The notes beneath the pieces are model-generated. The model had not been told where the DNA came from, ran no database searches, and saw nothing but the letters and a program-made list of their open reading frames with translations. Shown piece by piece: positions 1,710 through 11,317 of a DNA stretch of 41,100 bases. The DNA lies in the NCBI GenBank assembly GCA_903906315.1, contig CAIVJW010000178.1, positions 1 to 41,100 of the forward strand. Direction: 5' to 3'. Within the stretch, counting starts at the first letter, position 1. Every line of letters starts with the position of its first letter. The position numbers were made by a program, and so were the translations under genes. This DNA is from an uncultured delta proteobacterium. Lineage in GTDB: Bacteria > Myxococcota_A > Polyangia > Polyangiales > Polyangiaceae.

Positions 1710-2786
1710 ATGCCTCGTACGCGCGTCCTGGTCGTCGACGACTCCGCATTCTTCCGCAAGGTCGTGAGCGATGGCCTCGGGGCGGACCCCGCCATCGAGG
1801 TCGTCGGCACGGCCTCCAACGGCAGACTCGCGCTGTCGCGCATCCCGCAGGTGAACCCCGACGTCGTCGTGCTGGACGTCGAGATGCCGGAGATGGACGG
1901 CTTGCAGACCCTCGGGGCGATCCGCCGCATCTACCCGAAGCTGCCAGTCGTCATGTTCAGCTCGCTCACCGAGCGGGGCGCGCAGACCACGGTCGACGCG
2001 CTCCTGCTCGGCGCGAACGACTACGTGACGAAGCCCACGGCGGCGGACGCGAAGGAGCGCATCAAGGAGCTCCTCCGCAAGGTGAAGGCCGTCGCCGGCG
2101 TGACGAGCGGGGCGTCCACGCGCCCCGGCGCCGTCGACGCCAAGGGGCTCGGCGTCTATCCGCCCTACGGAGCGGTCACGCGCCCGGACGTGCTGCTGAT
2201 CGGATCCTCCACCGGGGGGCCCAACGCGCTCGCGGCGGTGTTCGCCGCGCTGCCCGCCGACTTGCCGGTGCCCATCCTGATCGTGCAGCACATGCCCCCG
2301 ATGTTCACCAAATGCCTGGCGGAGCGGCTCTCGAGCAGCTCCGCGGTCCCCACCGCCGAGGCGACCGACGGCCTCGTCATCGAGCCCGGCCACGCGTACA
2401 TCGCGCCCGGCGACTTCCACATGCGCCCCGTGCGCGCCGGCACGAAGGTCCACCTCGCGCTCGACAAGGAGCCCCCCGAGAACTCGTGCCGGCCTGCGGT
2501 CGACGTGATGTTCCGAGCGGCCTCGGAGCTGTGGGGCCGGGGCATCCTCGCCGTCGTCCTCACGGGCATGGGCCAGGACGGCTATCGCGGCGCGCAGGTC
2601 ATCCGCGAGCGAGGCGGGCGCATCTGGGTCCAGGACGAAGCGACCTCGATCGTGTGGGGAATGCCCGGCTTCATTGCCCGAGCCGGCATCGCCGAGCGGA
2701 TCCTGCCGCTCACTCAGATCGGTCACGAGCTCACCCGACGTGCACGCCAACACGCGCAGCCTGGTCACGAAGTGAGGAGTTCATGA
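1710..2786 (+). CDS. cheB: Protein-glutamate methylesterase/deamidase CheB
   Basis: This 358-residue CheB removes methyl groups from receptor glutamates during chemotactic adaptation. The N-terminal receiver has phosphoacceptor D56 (VVLDVEMPEMDG). The C-terminal esterase carries the triad S167 (IGSSTGGPNAL), H194 (IVQHMPP) and D290 (TGMGQDG). The start is set by GGAGGA just before ATG 1710; the frame is open further upstream, but that stretch overlaps the preceding cheY. Its stop overlaps the cheR start (ATGA), implying translational coupling of the two opposing enzymes. Length and domain order are standard. Confidence 0.97.
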   Translation: MPRTRVLVVDDSAFFRKVVSDGLGADPAIEVVGTASNGRLALSRIPQVNPDVVVLDVEMPEMDGLQTLGAIRRIYPKLPVVMFSSLTERGAQTTVDALLLGANDYVTKPTAADAKERIKELLRKVKAVAGVTSGASTRPGAVDAKGLGVYPPYGAVTRPDVLLIGSSTGGPNALAAVFAALPADLPVPILIVQHMPPMFTKCLAERLSSSSAVPTAEATDGLVIEPGHAYIAPGDFHMRPVRAGTKVHLALDKEPPENSCRPAVDVMFRAASELWGRGILAVVLTGMGQDGYRGAQVIRERGGRIWVQDEATSIVWGMPGFIARAGIAERILPLTQIGHELTRRARQHAQPGHEVRSS

Positions 2787-3630: not shown

Positions 3631-4086
3631 ATGCAATTCGAAGATGACCAAATCGACTCCATCATGCAGGCCATCTGGACCAGCGTGCTCGGCATCGAGC
3701 TCGCCGAGGAAGCCGCGCCCGTCCACGAGGACGCGCTCGACAGCATCTTCATGACGAGCTGCGTGCACATCGCAGGCCCGTGGTCGGGTGCCTTCACCGT
3801 GGCGTGCCCCCAGGTCCTCGCGCGCAAGTGCGCCGCGCTGATGTTCGGCATGGAGGTGGACGCCGTCTCGGACGACGAGACGAACGACGCGCTCGGCGAG
3901 ATCGCCAACATCGCGGGTGGGAATTTCAAGGCGTTGCTGCCGAGCGGCTGCCTGCTCTCGCTCCCGACCGTGGTGCAGGGGATCAAGCACCGGTTCGTCG
4001 TGCCGAGCAGCCACGTGGCCAGCCAGCGCATGTACCGGAGCGAGGGAGACCTGCTCGTGGTCAAGGTGCTCGAGCGCAAGGACTAG
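3631..4086 (+). CDS. cheX: CheX-type chemotaxis phosphatase
   Basis: A 151-residue protein of the CheC/CheX/FliY group, which dephosphorylates CheY-P. The catalytic signature is visible as D86-x3-E90-x2-N93 in DALGEIANIAGG, with one such motif, as in CheX. The start has a GAGGGG ribosome site 8 bases after the cheR stop. It sits between receptor-modification enzymes and a CheY, as expected for a signal-termination phosphatase in a system that lacks CheZ. CheX assignment from sequence is good; activity is inferred. Confidence 0.88.
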   Translation: MQFEDDQIDSIMQAIWTSVLGIELAEEAAPVHEDALDSIFMTSCVHIAGPWSGAFTVACPQVLARKCAALMFGMEVDAVSDDETNDALGEIANIAGGNFKALLPSGCLLSLPTVVQGIKHRFVVPSSHVASQRMYRSEGDLLVVKVLERKD

Positions 4087-4124
4087 CGTTTGCGCCGCGG
4101 CGGGATGGGAGAGAGGATCCGAGC

Positions 4125-4490
4125 ATGAAGATCATGATCGTCGACGACAGCAAGGCCATGCGCATGATCATCGTGCGCACGCTTCGACAGGCCGGCTACG
4201 GGGACCACACGCTGGTCGAGGCCGCGAGCGGCCCCGAGGCGATCGGGAAGCTCAGCAAGGGCGAGGACCCGGACGTCATCCTGTGCGACTGGAACATGCC
4301 GGAAATGACCGGCCTCGACCTGCTCAAGCGGGTCAAGGTCGAGTGGCCGAAGACCAAGCTCGGCTTCGTCACCTCCGAGTCTTCGGACAAGTTCCGGTCG
4401 GCGGCGGCCCAGGAAGGCGCAGCTTTCTTCCTCTGCAAGCCGTTTACGCCCGAGGGCTTGAAGGCTGCCCTGTCCCCTGTGCTAGGGTAG
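4125..4490 (+). CDS. cheY: CheY-like single-domain response regulator (second copy)
   Basis: A 121-residue receiver with VDDSKAMR (D7/D8), phosphoacceptor D55 in LCDWNMPEMTG, T83 in FVTSES and K105 in LCKPF. The start follows GAGAGGA. It lies directly between the CheX phosphatase and a second GEIxN protein, so it is the likely substrate of one or both. It resembles the receiver at 1318 closely enough to suggest duplication; which of the two is the motor or output CheY cannot be told from sequence. Confidence 0.92.
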   Translation: MKIMIVDDSKAMRMIIVRTLRQAGYGDHTLVEAASGPEAIGKLSKGEDPDVILCDWNMPEMTGLDLLKRVKVEWPKTKLGFVTSESSDKFRSAAAQEGAAFFLCKPFTPEGLKAALSPVLG

Positions 4491-6075: not shown

Positions 6076-6696
6076 CTAACCGCTGCCGCCCGCGCCGAGC
6101 CGGTCGTACTCGCCCTCGTCGCGACGTTGCCCCACCCAGGCGTGGGCGACGCCGCCGGCCACGATCACGACGGCGACGTCGCGGCCGCCCCCTTCGTACG
6201 TCGCGAAGAGCGCGCCCTCCGCGACCGAAGGCGCGCCCTGGCCCAGGCGATCGACCTCGACCGGGAGCCGACGGCGACGGCGGAGGGCGAGGCCGCGCAG
6301 CTCGATCGTCGCCGGCGGGTCAGGCGGCGCCTCGAGGTCGACGGGCACGAGCCACCACACGGCCCGTTCCGGGGGCGCGAAGACCGCGACCGCCTGGACC
6401 GTTGCGCCTTCGGGCGCGGTGAGCACGGCGGCGACGACGCGGCCGCCCTCGCGCAGCACCAGGCCGCCCGCGAGCCAGCGCTCCTCGCCGCCGACCGAAA
6501 CGACGTCACCGAGGGCGATCGGCAGCCCGACGAAGGGGTCCTCGACCGGACCAACGGCCCGAAGCTCGGTGGGACCCGAGCCCTCGACGCCGGGGCGTGA
6601 CGCGCGGCGCGACCCCGCCGCGGCCGCGCGCGTCGCGACGACGAAGCCGGCAGAGGCGGCCAACGCCGCGACGACGCAGGCCGCGAGCAGGCTCAC
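6076..6696 (-). CDS. Membrane-anchored hypothetical protein, thiE partner
   Basis: A 206-residue protein whose GTG start overlaps the thiE stop (GTGA), so it is translationally coupled. It has one N-terminal hydrophobic segment (residues 2-24) and then a mostly beta-strand soluble part with W/G-rich stretches (GGEERWLAGG, VWWLVPVD) and a C-terminal EYDRLG. The pattern is reminiscent of DUF4178-like domains, but I cannot confirm this. No catalytic motif is visible. It converges on holB with an 18-base gap. Confidence 0.75.
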   Translation of the reverse strand: MSLLAACVVAALAASAGFVVATRAAAAGSRRASRPGVEGSGPTELRAVGPVEDPFVGLPIALGDVVSVGGEERWLAGGLVLREGGRVVAAVLTAPEGATVQAVAVFAPPERAVWWLVPVDLEAPPDPPATIELRGLALRRRRRLPVEVDRLGQGAPSVAEGALFATYEGGGRDVAVVIVAGGVAHAWVGQRRDEGEYDRLGAGGSG

Positions 6697-7461: not shown

Positions 7462-8811
7462 ATGAGTGTGCGACCTTCTCCTCACGGCCTGCAAGCCCGG
7501 CCGACCGCGCCCCACGCGCGGCCCCTCCACCGTATCGGCTGGTGCGCCGCGGGCGTGGCGATCTCGCTCGGAGCGATCGGCGTGCCCACGGCGGCGCGGG
7601 CCGAGCCTCCCGCGGGCAAGGGGGACGCCGCGGCGCAGGCGCTCCCGCCGGCCCCGGTGCGCACCTGGCTCGTCACGCCCACGCGCAACGGCCCGTGGAC
7701 GATCCGCGTCGACAACACGGGCGACCACCCGGTCCGCATCCCCGCCGACGTCCGCCTCCTCCGGCTCGAGCTGGTCGCGTCGGACGGTCGACGCGCCAAG
7801 CGCACGGTCCGCTGCGACCTCGGCGAGCTGCGCCCGGACGCCTTCCCCGATCGACGCGCCCTGTACCTCGCCCCCTCGCAGTCCTGGGTCGAGACCTTCG
7901 ACCCGCGCCTGATCTGCTTCGGCAAGGACGCCGAGCTCCTCGCGGGCTCGGTCCTCGTCCGGGCGCGCTTCGGCTGGGACCCGCCACCGAAGCGGTCGAA
8001 GGCGCGGCCCGAGGCCCCGTTCGCGGCCGACGGCGTGGATGATCCGGCCTTCTTCGGCCCCTTGCGCGAGCTCGGGATCCCGAGCGTGATGCTGAGCTAC
8101 GACGAGGCGCCGCAAGCCCCCACCGGCCTGCTCGACCCGCCCGCGCCCCCGCAGCCCCCCGCTTCGCCCGCGCCCAGTGCGGCCCCCGCTTCGCCCGCGC
8201 CCGCCCCCCCCGTGGACGCTGGCGCCGTCGTGATCCTGCGGCCCGCCGGGGCCCCGGTCGCCGCTCCGGCCGCTCCGGCGGCCGTCGAGCCGCCCCCCCC
8301 GCCCATCGTGGACGCCAACGCGCCGCGGATCGAGCTCACCCAGGGCGCCATGTCCGACGCCCGCGGCGCCGGTCAGGTGACGGTCACCGTGACCGCGACG
8401 AACGTCGGCAAGTGGCCGCTCATCGCGCCATTCCACGCGCGCATGCTCGAATTCCGGGTGCTCGCCCCCGATGGCCGACGCACGCGCTGCGACGCCGCCG
8501 CGCCGACGCGCGCGATCGCCCGCGACCTGTACCGGACGATGAAGCCGGGAGCCTCGATGACATTCCCCGTGCGGCTCCTCGAGGTCTGCCCGGTCGGCAC
8601 GTTCGGCCGGCCCGGCCTCTACAGCGCGCACGCGACGCTGCGCGCGCGCGAGCCGGGGACCGAGGTCGGGCTCGAGGCCTACACGGGAATCATCCCGGCG
8701 ATCGCTCCGACGCTCGTCCGCGTCCAGAGCGGCCCGAGCCCGTTCTACACCGTGCCCCCCGCCGCGGTCGCCACCCCCGTCGACCCCTCCGCGGCCATCT
8801 CCGCCGAGTAG
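7462..8811 (+). CDS. Secreted Pro/Ala-rich protein of unknown function
   Basis: 449 residues from ATG 7462. An N-terminal stretch with a hydrophobic core ends in PTAARA, giving a probable Sec signal peptide of about 49 residues. Two beta-rich domains are separated by a Pro/Ala linker (about residues 215-280). The first has WTIRVDNTGDHPVRI and the second VTVTATNVGKWPLI, both resembling Ig-like segments for unmodified-amino-acid (non-enzymatic) folds. Both domains carry conserved Cys (TVRCDLGE, RTRCDAA). No catalytic motif is seen. An internal duplication is likely. It is divergent from thiE. Confidence 0.78.
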   Translation: MSVRPSPHGLQARPTAPHARPLHRIGWCAAGVAISLGAIGVPTAARAEPPAGKGDAAAQALPPAPVRTWLVTPTRNGPWTIRVDNTGDHPVRIPADVRLLRLELVASDGRRAKRTVRCDLGELRPDAFPDRRALYLAPSQSWVETFDPRLICFGKDAELLAGSVLVRARFGWDPPPKRSKARPEAPFAADGVDDPAFFGPLRELGIPSVMLSYDEAPQAPTGLLDPPAPPQPPASPAPSAAPASPAPAPPVDAGAVVILRPAGAPVAAPAAPAAVEPPPPPIVDANAPRIELTQGAMSDARGAGQVTVTVTATNVGKWPLIAPFHARMLEFRVLAPDGRRTRCDAAAPTRAIARDLYRTMKPGASMTFPVRLLEVCPVGTFGRPGLYSAHATLRAREPGTEVGLEAYTGIIPAIAPTLVRVQSGPSPFYTVPPAAVATPVDPSAAISAE

Positions 8812-8842
8812 CCCGCGGACGGGATCAGCCCGCTGCCTGGGC

Positions 8843-8869
8843 CTCGCGAGCCTCGCGGCGGCTCGCGAG
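8843..8869 (+). terminator. GC-rich hairpin after the secreted-protein gene
   Basis: A perfect 10-bp stem (8843-8852 with 8860-8869; left arm CTCGCGAGCC) with a 7-base loop lies 31 bases after the stop codon at 8811. There is no T-tract, so it is a weak or Rho-assisted terminator or 3'-end stabiliser by inference. Confidence 0.45.
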
Positions 8870-8970
8870 CGCCGGGCTGCCTCGCGTCCTCTCCGGTGCA
8901 TCGCCATCGCCATCGCACTCGTGCTCGGGCGAATTGCGTACGCGCAACGACGCCCATCGAAGCACCACCC

Positions 8971-8989
8971 AAGCCGTCGAATTCATTCG
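8971..8989 (+). repeat. Upstream element of RNA unit 1
   Basis: AAGCCGTCGAATTCATTCG. It matches 9268-9286 at 16 of 19 positions and sits exactly 9 bases before the sigma-54 -24 box in both units. In this copy an inverted repeat, TCGAAT-TC-ATTCGA, spans 8977-8990. It could be an activator site or simply part of the duplicated unit. Confidence 0.6.
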
Positions 8990-8998
8990 ATGGCATTG

Positions 8999-9014
8999 TG
9001 GCCCCAAGGTTGCA
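8999..9014 (+). promoter_or_regulatory. Sigma-54 (RpoN) promoter of RNA unit 1
   Basis: TGGCCCCAAGGTTGCA fits the -24/-12 consensus TGGCAC-N5-TTGCA with one mismatch (C for A in the -24 box). GG and GC are 12 bases apart, start to start, which is the strict sigma-54 spacing. The -12 C at 9013 puts +1 at about 9025, exactly the first base of the RNA hairpin. Confidence 0.8.
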
Positions 9015-9024
9015 TATACCGAAG

Positions 9025-9080
9025 ACGAAGCGCCCGCGGACGGTTTCCCCCCCCAGCCGTCGAGCGGGCGCTTCGTTTCT
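9025..9080 (+). ncRNA. Small hairpin RNA with C8 loop, unit 1
   Basis: Predicted sigma-54-dependent RNA of about 56 bases. It folds as a perfect 13-bp outer stem (9025-9037 with 9064-9076), a small G/GA internal loop, a 5-bp inner stem (9039-9043 with 9057-9061) and a 13-base loop containing eight consecutive C (9047-9054). It ends in TTTCT. Unit 2 has the same architecture with compensatory changes. No ORF fits the element. A C-rich loop suits pairing with G-rich ribosome binding sites. It could also be just a terminator, but no upstream gene on this strand needs one. Confidence 0.72.
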
Positions 9081-9089
9081 CCTGCTGCT

Positions 9090-9112
9090 GCTCGCGTGAT
9101 TGCACCGCGAGC
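9090..9112 (+). other. Second hairpin just downstream of RNA unit 1
   Basis: Stem GCTCGCG (9090-9096) with CGCGAGC (9106-9112) and a 9-base loop. It has no counterpart after unit 2, where the T-rich tract is better. It may act as the 3' end of unit 1 if transcription reads past the weak TTTCT. Confidence 0.35.
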
Positions 9113-9267
9113 GGATGGTGCCCGGGAGAAGGAATGGCCCGACGTTGCCCGCTCGCCGCACCGACGCGACGATTCGCTGGGCATGACGAGGGCCGAGCCG
9201 CAGCAAGCCATTCAGTTCCGTCGGGGCGGAATGGCATTTGTTGCATCAATGAAATTGCCCCAGGGGT

Positions 9268-9286
9268 AAGCCATCGACTTCACTCG
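9268..9286 (+). repeat. Upstream element of RNA unit 2
   Basis: AAGCCATCGACTTCACTCG. Second copy of the 19-base element at 8971-8989, again 9 bases before the -24 box. The inverted repeat seen in copy 1 is degraded here. Confidence 0.6.
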
Positions 9287-9295
9287 GCCAAAGCC

Positions 9296-9311
9296 TGGCA
9301 CCACCGTTGCT
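9296..9311 (+). promoter_or_regulatory. Sigma-54 (RpoN) promoter of RNA unit 2
   Basis: TGGCACCACCGTTGCT matches the TGGCAC-N5-TTGC(A/T) consensus completely, with correct 12-base GG-to-GC spacing. The -12 C at 9310 predicts +1 at about 9322, one base before the hairpin begins. Confidence 0.85.
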
Positions 9312-9321
9312 ATAGCCTTAT

Positions 9322-9380
9322 GACGGAGCGCCCGCGGATGGTTCCCCCCCCACCGTCGAGCAGGCGCTCCGTTTTCTTTT
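9322..9380 (+). ncRNA. Small hairpin RNA with C8 loop, unit 2
   Basis: Predicted RNA of about 59 bases. The 13-bp outer stem (9323-9335 with 9360-9372) has one C-A mismatch, followed by the same G/GA internal loop, a 5-bp inner stem (9337-9341 with 9353-9357) and an 11-base loop again holding exactly eight C (9344-9351). It ends in TTTTCTTTT, a good intrinsic terminator tail. Compared with unit 1, outer pair 4 changes A-U to G-C and the inner central pair changes C-G to U-G, so pairing is kept while sequence drifts. It is a paralogue of unit 1. Confidence 0.75.
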
Positions 9381-9660
9381 CTCCGTCCGGAAGGTGCGCG
9401 CGCAGGCCGAGTGGCCCCCCACCGACGAGGACGCGGACGGCGCCCAGCCCGCTTCGGGCGCGGCGGCGGTGAGGCGGGAGCCGTAGGGCGGCTCCGACCG
9501 TCCCGGTGTCCGCGCCTCCAGGGGTCACCGCCTCCCGCGCGCCATTGGCAGCGCTCGCCAACGGCCTTTCGTGGCCGCTCGGTCACCCCGGCCACACGCC
9601 ACCTGCGGAGAATCCCCGGCCGTCGTGGTAGGTCGCCGAGCGCCGCCCCCCCCCGTCGCG
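9381..9660. other. Intergenic remainder after the RNA pair
   Basis: No gene recognised. It holds a 7-bp hairpin (9477-9483 with 9489-9495) and a run of nine C (9646-9654) just before the end of the carboxyltransferase gene. Neither has a neighbouring promoter that I can recognise. Confidence 0.5.
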
Positions 9661-11223
9661 TCAAACCGGCACGATGCCGCGGCGCTTCGCGGGCCGCTCG
9701 ACGTGCTTCGTCCGCGCGAGGTCGAGGCCCCAGCCGATGGCGCGGCGGGTGTCGCGCGGATCGATGACGTCGTCGATGAGGCCCCAACCGGCGACCTTCA
9801 TCACGTCGATGTTCTTCTGGATCATCCCGACGATGCCTGCGCGCACCTCGGGCGGCGGCGGCGTGTCGCCGAACAGCTTGCGCGCGGCGATGCCCACCAT
9901 CCCCTCGGCGCCCATCACGCTGATCTCCGCGCTCGGCCAGCCGACGATGAGATCCGGCTCGTAGGCGCGACCGCACATCACGTAGTACCCGGCGCCGTAC
10001 GCCTTCCGGACCACGACAGTCACCTTCGGCACGGTCGCCGCGGCCATGACGTGGAGCATCTTGGCGCCGTGCCGGATGATGCCCTCGTGCTCGACCTTCG
10101 AGCCGACCATGAACCCGGGGACGTCCTGCAGGAAGACGAGCGGGATGCTGAAGGCGTCGCAGATCTGGATGAATCGAGCGGCCTTGTCGGCCGAGTCGAC
10201 GTCGAGGATGCCGCCGAGGTGGTTCGGCTGATTGGCCACGACGCCCACGGGCGCCCCACCGACGCGGGCCAGACAGGTGATGATCGATCGCGCCCAGCGG
10301 GGCTTCAGATCGAGCCACTCACCGTGATCGACGACCGCGCCGATGAGCTTGTACATGTCGTACGGCTTGCGCGGGTTCTCCGGGAGCAGGTCGAGGAGGG
10401 ACTCCTCGCGGCGGTCGATCGGGTCGGTGACGGGCAATCGCGGAGGGGCCTCGTCGCAGCTCGAGGGGAAGAAGGAGAGGTACCGCTTCACGATCGCGAT
10501 ACACTCGGCGTCGTTCGCCACCTCGCAGTCGCCGACTCCGCTCTTCGAGGTGTGGATCTTCGACCCGCCGAGCTCCTGCTCGCCGATCTCCTCGCCGGTC
10601 ACGGCCTTGACCAGCGCGGGGCCGCCGAGGGCCATCGAGCCCACGTTCTTCACCATCGGCACGAAGTCGGCGAGGCCGGGGATGTAGGCCGTCCCCGCGG
10701 CGCCGGGGCCGACCATCGCGGCCACCTGCGGGACGACTCCGCTCATGTGCACCTGCTCGCGGAAGAGGTGCCCCGATCCGGCGAAGAGCGAGATCATGTC
10801 CGGGTGGCTCGACCCCGGGTCGATGCGCGCGCCGCCCGAGTCGATGAACCACACCATCGGCCAGCGGCCGCGGAGCGCCATCTGGCGCATCCGGGTGACC
10901 TTCTCCTCGCCCGTGTGCCCGATGCTCCCGCCCTTCACGGTGAAGTCGTACGCCGCGGCGCACACCATCCGGCCGTCGACCTTGCCGAAGCCGCAGACGA
11001 CCGCGTCCGCCGCAGGGCGATCGGCGCCGTCGGGACCGGCCGCGAGCCCCATCTGGGTGCCGTGCATGCCGACCTCGAAGAAGACGCCGTCGTCGAAGAA
11101 GGCCGCGAAGCGCTCACGTGCCGTCAGCTTGCCGCGCGCGCGCTGCTTCGCGACGCGCTCGTCGCCGCCCATCTTGCGCACTTCCTCGCGGCGCGCCTCC
11201 AGATCCTTCACGAGATCACGCAT
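9661..11223 (-). CDS. Acyl-CoA carboxylase carboxyltransferase (beta) subunit
   Basis: 520 residues of the biotin-dependent carboxyltransferase family (propionyl-, methylcrotonyl- or geranyl-CoA carboxylase beta type). Two crotonase-like halves are visible. The N-half has FIDSGGARIDPGS and VVPQVAAMVGPGAAGTAYIP; the C-half has LVFLQDVPGFMVG and the GAGYYVMCGRAYEPD region. ATG 11223 begins the typical MRDLVKDLEARR. A GTG two codons upstream (11229) is better spaced from GGAGGT and may be the real start. It lies 94 bases downstream of the enoyl-CoA hydratase gene. No biotin carboxylase subunit is encoded nearby, so the alpha partner must be elsewhere; the substrate is unassigned. Confidence 0.92.
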   Translation of the reverse strand: MRDLVKDLEARREEVRKMGGDERVAKQRARGKLTARERFAAFFDDGVFFEVGMHGTQMGLAAGPDGADRPAADAVVCGFGKVDGRMVCAAAYDFTVKGGSIGHTGEEKVTRMRQMALRGRWPMVWFIDSGGARIDPGSSHPDMISLFAGSGHLFREQVHMSGVVPQVAAMVGPGAAGTAYIPGLADFVPMVKNVGSMALGGPALVKAVTGEEIGEQELGGSKIHTSKSGVGDCEVANDAECIAIVKRYLSFFPSSCDEAPPRLPVTDPIDRREESLLDLLPENPRKPYDMYKLIGAVVDHGEWLDLKPRWARSIITCLARVGGAPVGVVANQPNHLGGILDVDSADKAARFIQICDAFSIPLVFLQDVPGFMVGSKVEHEGIIRHGAKMLHVMAAATVPKVTVVVRKAYGAGYYVMCGRAYEPDLIVGWPSAEISVMGAEGMVGIAARKLFGDTPPPPEVRAGIVGMIQKNIDVMKVAGWGLIDDVIDPRDTRRAIGWGLDLARTKHVERPAKRRGIVPV

Positions 11224-11317
11224 GTTCACGAAGCCACCTCCATCGTGCCAATGGGCCCCCGGCACGGCCGGGACCGGATTCCAATCATGCCCGCGCGGCG
11301 GGCCGGGCGGGGGCGTG

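Follow-up and report, generated by a model that had tools for sequence, protein, structure and literature searches.

A family of predicted sigma-54-controlled C-loop hairpin RNAs in Polyangia shares its control region and loop with the developmental small RNA Pxr

Two small hairpin RNA genes, predicted from sequence in the genome of an uncultured member of the Polyangiaceae, were found to belong to a large and so far uncatalogued family that shares its sigma-54 promoter, activator-like upstream sites, and C-rich loop with Pxr, the small RNA that blocks multicellular development in Myxococcus. Pxr may therefore be one branch of a much older switch. The two units lie in the window, i.e., the whole stretch of 41,100 nucleotides that was analyzed (contig CAIVJW010000178.1 of assembly GCA_903906315.1), in a gap between two tail-to-tail genes, with no plus-strand gene behind them. 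Each unit, 297 bases from the other, contains a conserved element, a 9-base spacer, a sigma-54 box with exact GG-N10-GC spacing, and a hairpin that begins at the predicted start of transcription, has a predicted loop of U plus eight C, and ends in a T tail (table).

Features of the window and the evidence for each
Coordinates	Strand	Feature	Evidence
3631-4490		CheX-like gene followed by a single-domain response regulator	
7582-8811	+	Gene upstream of the gap	No Pfam match
8412-9269		ORF crossing into the gap	No Pfam match at E 0.001; not chosen by a codon-position gene caller
8812-9660		Gap between tail-to-tail genes	
8921-9472		ORF within the gap	No Pfam match at E 0.001; not chosen by a codon-position gene caller
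8913-8926		Weaker dyad of unit 1	7 of 10 consensus positions
8934-8947		Dyad of unit 1 (TTGCGTACGCGCAA), candidate activator site, center -58 from the box	8 of 10 consensus positions, below the 9 of 10 seen in most units
8970-8989	+	Conserved promoter element of unit 1, CAAGTGCTYGA type	8 of 11 positions, at -29
8999-9013	+	Sigma-54 box of unit 1 (TGGCCCCAAGGTTGC)	GG-N10-GC spacing
9025-9079	+	Hairpin RNA of unit 1: 13-bp outer stem, inner stem, U+C8 loop (C run 9047-9054), short T tail 9076-9078	-37.2 kcal/mol, z -6.5; model score 80 bits (seed sequence)
9241-9254		Dyad of unit 2 (TTGCATCAATGAAA), candidate activator site, center -48 from the box	10 of 10 consensus positions
9268-9286	+	Conserved promoter element of unit 2	16 of 19 bases identical to that of unit 1; only 7 of 11 to the family consensus, so not the best match in that region
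9296-9310	+	Sigma-54 box of unit 2 (TGGCACCACCGTTGC)	GG-N10-GC spacing
9322-9375	+	Hairpin RNA of unit 2: outer stem with one C·A mismatch, inner stem, U+C8 loop (C run 9344-9351), T tail 9372-9375	-32.0 kcal/mol, z -5.3; model score 71.6 bits (seed sequence)
9661-11229	-	Carboxyl transferase gene downstream of the gap	

A first-pass annotation of the sequence had described these two units as tandem, stand-alone, activator-controlled small RNA genes, and our analysis supported this reading and confirmed the observation with one correction. While the annotation reported 13 outer pairs in both hairpins, unit 2 folds as 11 pairs, a C·A mismatch, and 2 pairs. Both hairpins are far more stable than shuffled sequence, with 0 of 200 shuffles as stable in either case. 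The boxes alone are weak evidence, as TGGCN7TTGC occurs 3 times in the window against 0.87 expected and 5 of 100 shuffles reach 3. Outer pair 4 is A-U in unit 1 and G-C in unit 2, changed on both sides, whereas the central inner pair is C-G and U-G, changed on one side only. The annotation had taken these differences as covariation, but a single two-sided change between two copies would be thin proof of an RNA, and it is the wider family that supplies it. The 19-base element noted in the annotation (8971-8989 in unit 1) proved to be a conserved promoter element; the upstream dyads, a second pair of units in the same genome, the copy number in other genomes, and the link to Pxr had not been seen. 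No known RNA family was found in the window at the Rfam gathering scores.

A BLAST search with unit 1 in 59 related genomes (sampled genomes are given here by G numbers) revealed clear homologues in G031, G019 (three places), and G017 and a two-hairpin relative in G057; matches in three further genomes and on one other contig of the window's own genome were set aside for want of a C-loop hairpin. A covariance model of seven hairpins without promoter, R1, was then run over 240 genomes of the class, and 32 of 240 had a match at E 0.01 or better. Many of the weak matches are chance; among those inspected, matches in G197, G124, and one contig of G043 lack a C loop, and G217 (locus L083, about 1998-2051, minus strand) and G046 (two loci) have C-loop terminator-like hairpins without a clear sigma-54 box upstream. 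The strong matches are the same set as found by BLAST plus one genus, here g15, in which six genomes (10.8 to 13.4 Mb, a size that suggests Sorangium) have six matches each; this count does not cover genomes of g15 without a match, if any. These copies sit at four loci, i.e., two singles, a pair 320 to 337 nt apart, and a pair 221 to 224 nt apart (914 in G223), and the surrounding DNA aligns between the six species in the parts compared, although the far upstream parts of some rows do not align. Of 43 R1 matches at E 1e-7 or better, 42 have TGGYN8YGC with 9 to 12 nt to the start of the match, the exception being G217, while 782 of 40000 random 40-mers from the same loci (1.96%) contain it. The seed set of R1 includes the two window units, which were picked with their boxes.

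To look for more distant relatives, a pattern of box, C6 run, and T run was searched in 377 genomes of the phylum and hit 30. After folding, 11 of these were dropped because no C-loop hairpin was formed or, in G037, only a weak one of -6.1 kcal/mol; G017 was accepted on its R1 score because its long fold differs. Verified units thus occur in 17 of 35 sampled same-family genomes, 2 of 36 others of the order (G216 and G043), and 0 of 306 others of the phylum, whereas the reversed pattern matched 15 times in 13 genomes, three of them same-family. The pattern is strict and these counts are lower bounds; in G216 a further unit with a perfect dyad and a C5-loop hairpin of -30.0 kcal/mol (contig C28, minus strand, box at 6220 of the reverse complement) was missed by it. 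Stems are very different in sequence between genera, yet the C run begins 30 to 37 nt after the -12 GC in the Polyangia units kept. Tandem units are common and include the window pair, a second pair in the same genome (contig C266, 332 nt apart), a pair in G003 (353 nt apart), and three units in G228 (contig C233, boxes at 1429, 1758, and 2172), each encoding two hairpins with C7 to C8 loops in a row, a layout apparently like that of actinobacterial 6C RNA. Neighboring genes look unrelated from locus to locus, and no shared neighbor was seen, as judged by eye from gene calls.

On alignments fitted to the model, two-sided changes appear at 11 of 18 pairs (32 distinct rows) and at 17 of 18 pairs (21 diverse rows, one of which is a reverse-strand match that was left in), with 0 of 500 shuffles reaching the covariation score in either. 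Because the fitting favors the structure, slid controls are the better comparison, and these reached at most 0.146 against 0.494 in the set of 21 rows.

Enumeration of spaced 4-mers in the 220 nt before 28 nonredundant Polyangia units and M. xanthus pxr put forms of one palindrome, TTKCA-N4-TGMAA, on top (10 of 29 regions, where three shuffled sets peaked at 6 to 7). At least 9 of 10 positions match in 22 of 29 regions, 12 of them perfect, against a mean of 0.35 and a maximum of 3 in 500 shuffled sets, and at least 8 of 10 match in 27 of 29 regions, against 3.9 and 10. Centers recur near -48, -59, and -81 from the box, one or two helical turns apart. The consensus was found on the same sequences on which it was scored; however, six Polyangia units left out of the discovery score 9 or 10 (two of them are orthologues of a discovery unit), and nine further pxr loci, close kin of the one used, have two perfect sites each. 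Among 428 distinct boxes in the loci examined, 52 have the dyad at -66 to -45, of which 51 are followed by a C6+ run at the right distance and the last by a C5-loop hairpin. Another 34 boxes have the C run without the dyad in that interval: 12 pxr loci, whose perfect dyads lie further up; 11 hairpin units with weaker or displaced dyads, among them unit 1 and both C266 units (8 of 10 each); and 11 chance hits without a hairpin, none of which has a dyad of 9 or more between -120 and -40. In the window's own genome, only 1 of 4 units (unit 2) has a dyad at 9 or more of 10, and the three G228 units score 7 to 8. The second element, CAAGTGCTYGA, scores 8 or more of 11 in 22 of 29 regions against a shuffle mean of 3.6 and a maximum of 10; 18 of the 28 Polyangia units have it at -29 to -31, and pxr has it at -41.

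Pxr blocks fruiting-body development in M. xanthus and has a predicted sigma-54 promoter, and its synthesis is regulated by the two-component pair PxrR/PxrK (PMC5684412, PMC5568312). A search of named genomes with the stem-loop 1 sequence taken from published primers gave 15 contigs: 12 Cystobacterineae-type records, two chance matches, and one contig labeled Comamonas sp. KCTC 72670 (BNCN01000002.1, from 1377) that carries a Myxococcus-type pxr gene with box and dyads and looks mislabeled or mixed. The first stem-loop of pxr has the loop UUC7A closed by GG/CC, and a single C-to-A change in this loop, or its deletion, abolishes function (PMC5684412). PxrR, a sigma-54-type activator, has one outstanding relative in each of eight C-loop genomes (53 to 56% identical, 466 to 497 bits; no second hit exceeds 402 bits), although genomes lacking the RNAs were not included and the co-occurrence is therefore one-sided. 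The copy of the window's genome, on contig C117, finds pxrR back as best hit in both genomes queried, M. xanthus and Hyalangium (463 and 472 bits; next, 373 and 381). The domain layout is the same (receiver, sigma-54 activation, Fis-type HTH), and the helix TTLWRKMxRL is kept in the six Polyangia proteins that were aligned. No C-loop unit was found in the eight Polyangia orthologue loci of about 4.3 kb; in six of these, the gene lies beside genes that by eye look like bacterioferritin (four loci) and queA (five loci) and not beside an obvious PxrK.

In contrast to these shared features of the control region and loop, the RNAs differ from Pxr in body plan and are not Pxr by Rfam's definition. 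The Pxr model RF01812 has no match in window positions 8900 to 9450 at E 10 and matches 0 of 6 Polyangia genomes at E 1 but 1 of 1 M. xanthus, and R1 gave no match at pxr. Pxr is about 108 nt with three stem-loops, is single copy in most species (with tandem paralogues in Cystobacter [PMC5568312]), and is encoded next to pxrR, whereas the Polyangia RNAs are one or two hairpins, multicopy, and away from the PxrR orthologue. The single-hairpin pattern was found in 0 of 6 Cystobacterineae genomes. A search for Pxr stem-loop 1 with up to 3 mismatches matched 0 of 377 genomes, but the miss says little because the pattern had C6 where the real loop has C7. Among other known RNAs, 6C RNA has no Rfam match in the window at gathering score, in 8900 to 9450 at E 10, or in six other loci at E 1, and a tfoR match in the G228 locus (E 0.11; 23.8 bits against a gathering score of 70) was set aside as chance. 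Within the open literature collection searched, nothing was listed on such RNAs in Polyangia.

We consider it likely that each unit is a stand-alone gene for a hairpin RNA of about 55 nt, transcribed by RNA polymerase with sigma-54 from near the foot of the hairpin, about 12 nt after the -12 GC, when an NtrC-type activator on the upstream dyads, most likely the PxrR orthologue, remodels it. These steps, the pairing with targets, and the role are inferred, without transcript data. The transcript would be little more than one stem, whose 3' arm and T tail end transcription while the U-C8 loop is held open as the seed. The genome contains RpoN, and Hfq was not detected. It is hypothesized that the loop pairs with G-rich leaders or ribosome binding sites and lowers translation of several mRNAs, gating a nutrient or developmental decision by analogy with Pxr. 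A C/U-rich terminator loop that pairs with a G repeat in an mRNA leader has a precedent in RepG of Helicobacter pylori, a single gene in another phylum (PMC8295292). AGGGGGG shortly before ATG (AGGGGGGN4-9ATG) exceeds the reversed pattern in 7 of 7 genomes (30 against 8 in the window's genome, 89 against 36 in G215, and 87 against 20 in M. xanthus, but 23 against 21 in G003), which permits such targets and does not show them, as Shine-Dalgarno sequences alone could give this excess. Several copies per genome might raise the dose or add inputs, as with the Qrr RNAs of Vibrio, paralogous small RNAs that act redundantly or additively (PMC5568312).

The main mechanistic alternative is that the C loop is a decoy for an RNA-binding protein that likes C-rich single strands. 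Loop letters are kept while stems vary freely, several copies per genome suit titration, and Hfq was not found; however, C loops of known function, as in RepG, pair with G-rich RNA, and the variable loop flanks (UUC, UC, or UAC before; A, G, or U after) suit a homopolymer seed as well, so we regard a decoy as unlikely. It is more improbable still that the hairpins are ordinary intrinsic terminators with C-rich loops and chance boxes. While the T runs and the tail-to-tail gap fit terminators and boxes alone are not rare, the fixed place of the box, the upstream dyads, the tandem whole units, and neighbors on varying strands and of varying kind speak against it. A mobile or REP-like repeat is the most remote possibility: several near-identical copies occur per genome, but there are at most six R1 matches in any genome searched, the surrounding DNA aligns between species in the parts compared, and the stems diverge with pairing kept.

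A more open question concerns descent. The resemblance to Pxr in box, dyads, and loop could reflect convergence or common use of one activator, as the two covariance models do not recognize each other's members and pxr has three stem-loops, a C run that starts 45 nt after the box, and dyads that lie further up. We consider this possible but doubtful, because two dyads, the CAAGTGCTYGA element, the box, a GG/CC-closed U-rich C loop, and an orthologous activator coincide. The Polyangia RNAs probably belong to the same regulon as Pxr, and common descent of the RNAs themselves is likely but not proven. Slightly more likely than not, in our view, a PxrR-type activator, sigma-54, and C-loop RNAs form an older regulon spanning Polyangia and Myxococcia, which in Polyangia runs on multicopy RNAs reduced to a single hairpin in which the terminator itself carries the seed, while Pxr gained further stem-loops. 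The same switch may gate development or nutrient decisions across the myxobacteria.

Pxr controls the switch to multicellular development, its direct targets remain unknown in print (PMC11928866), and its origin is placed at the base of Cystobacterineae (PMC5684412, PMC5568312). A related multicopy family in Polyangia would move that origin back and would supply many natural variants in which little but the control region and the loop is kept, and so would point to the C loop as the active part. It turns the question of what Pxr pairs with into a comparative one, namely, which mRNA leaders keep G runs wherever these RNAs exist. RNAs of about 55 nt in which terminator and seed are one hairpin would also, by inference, be very compact regulators.
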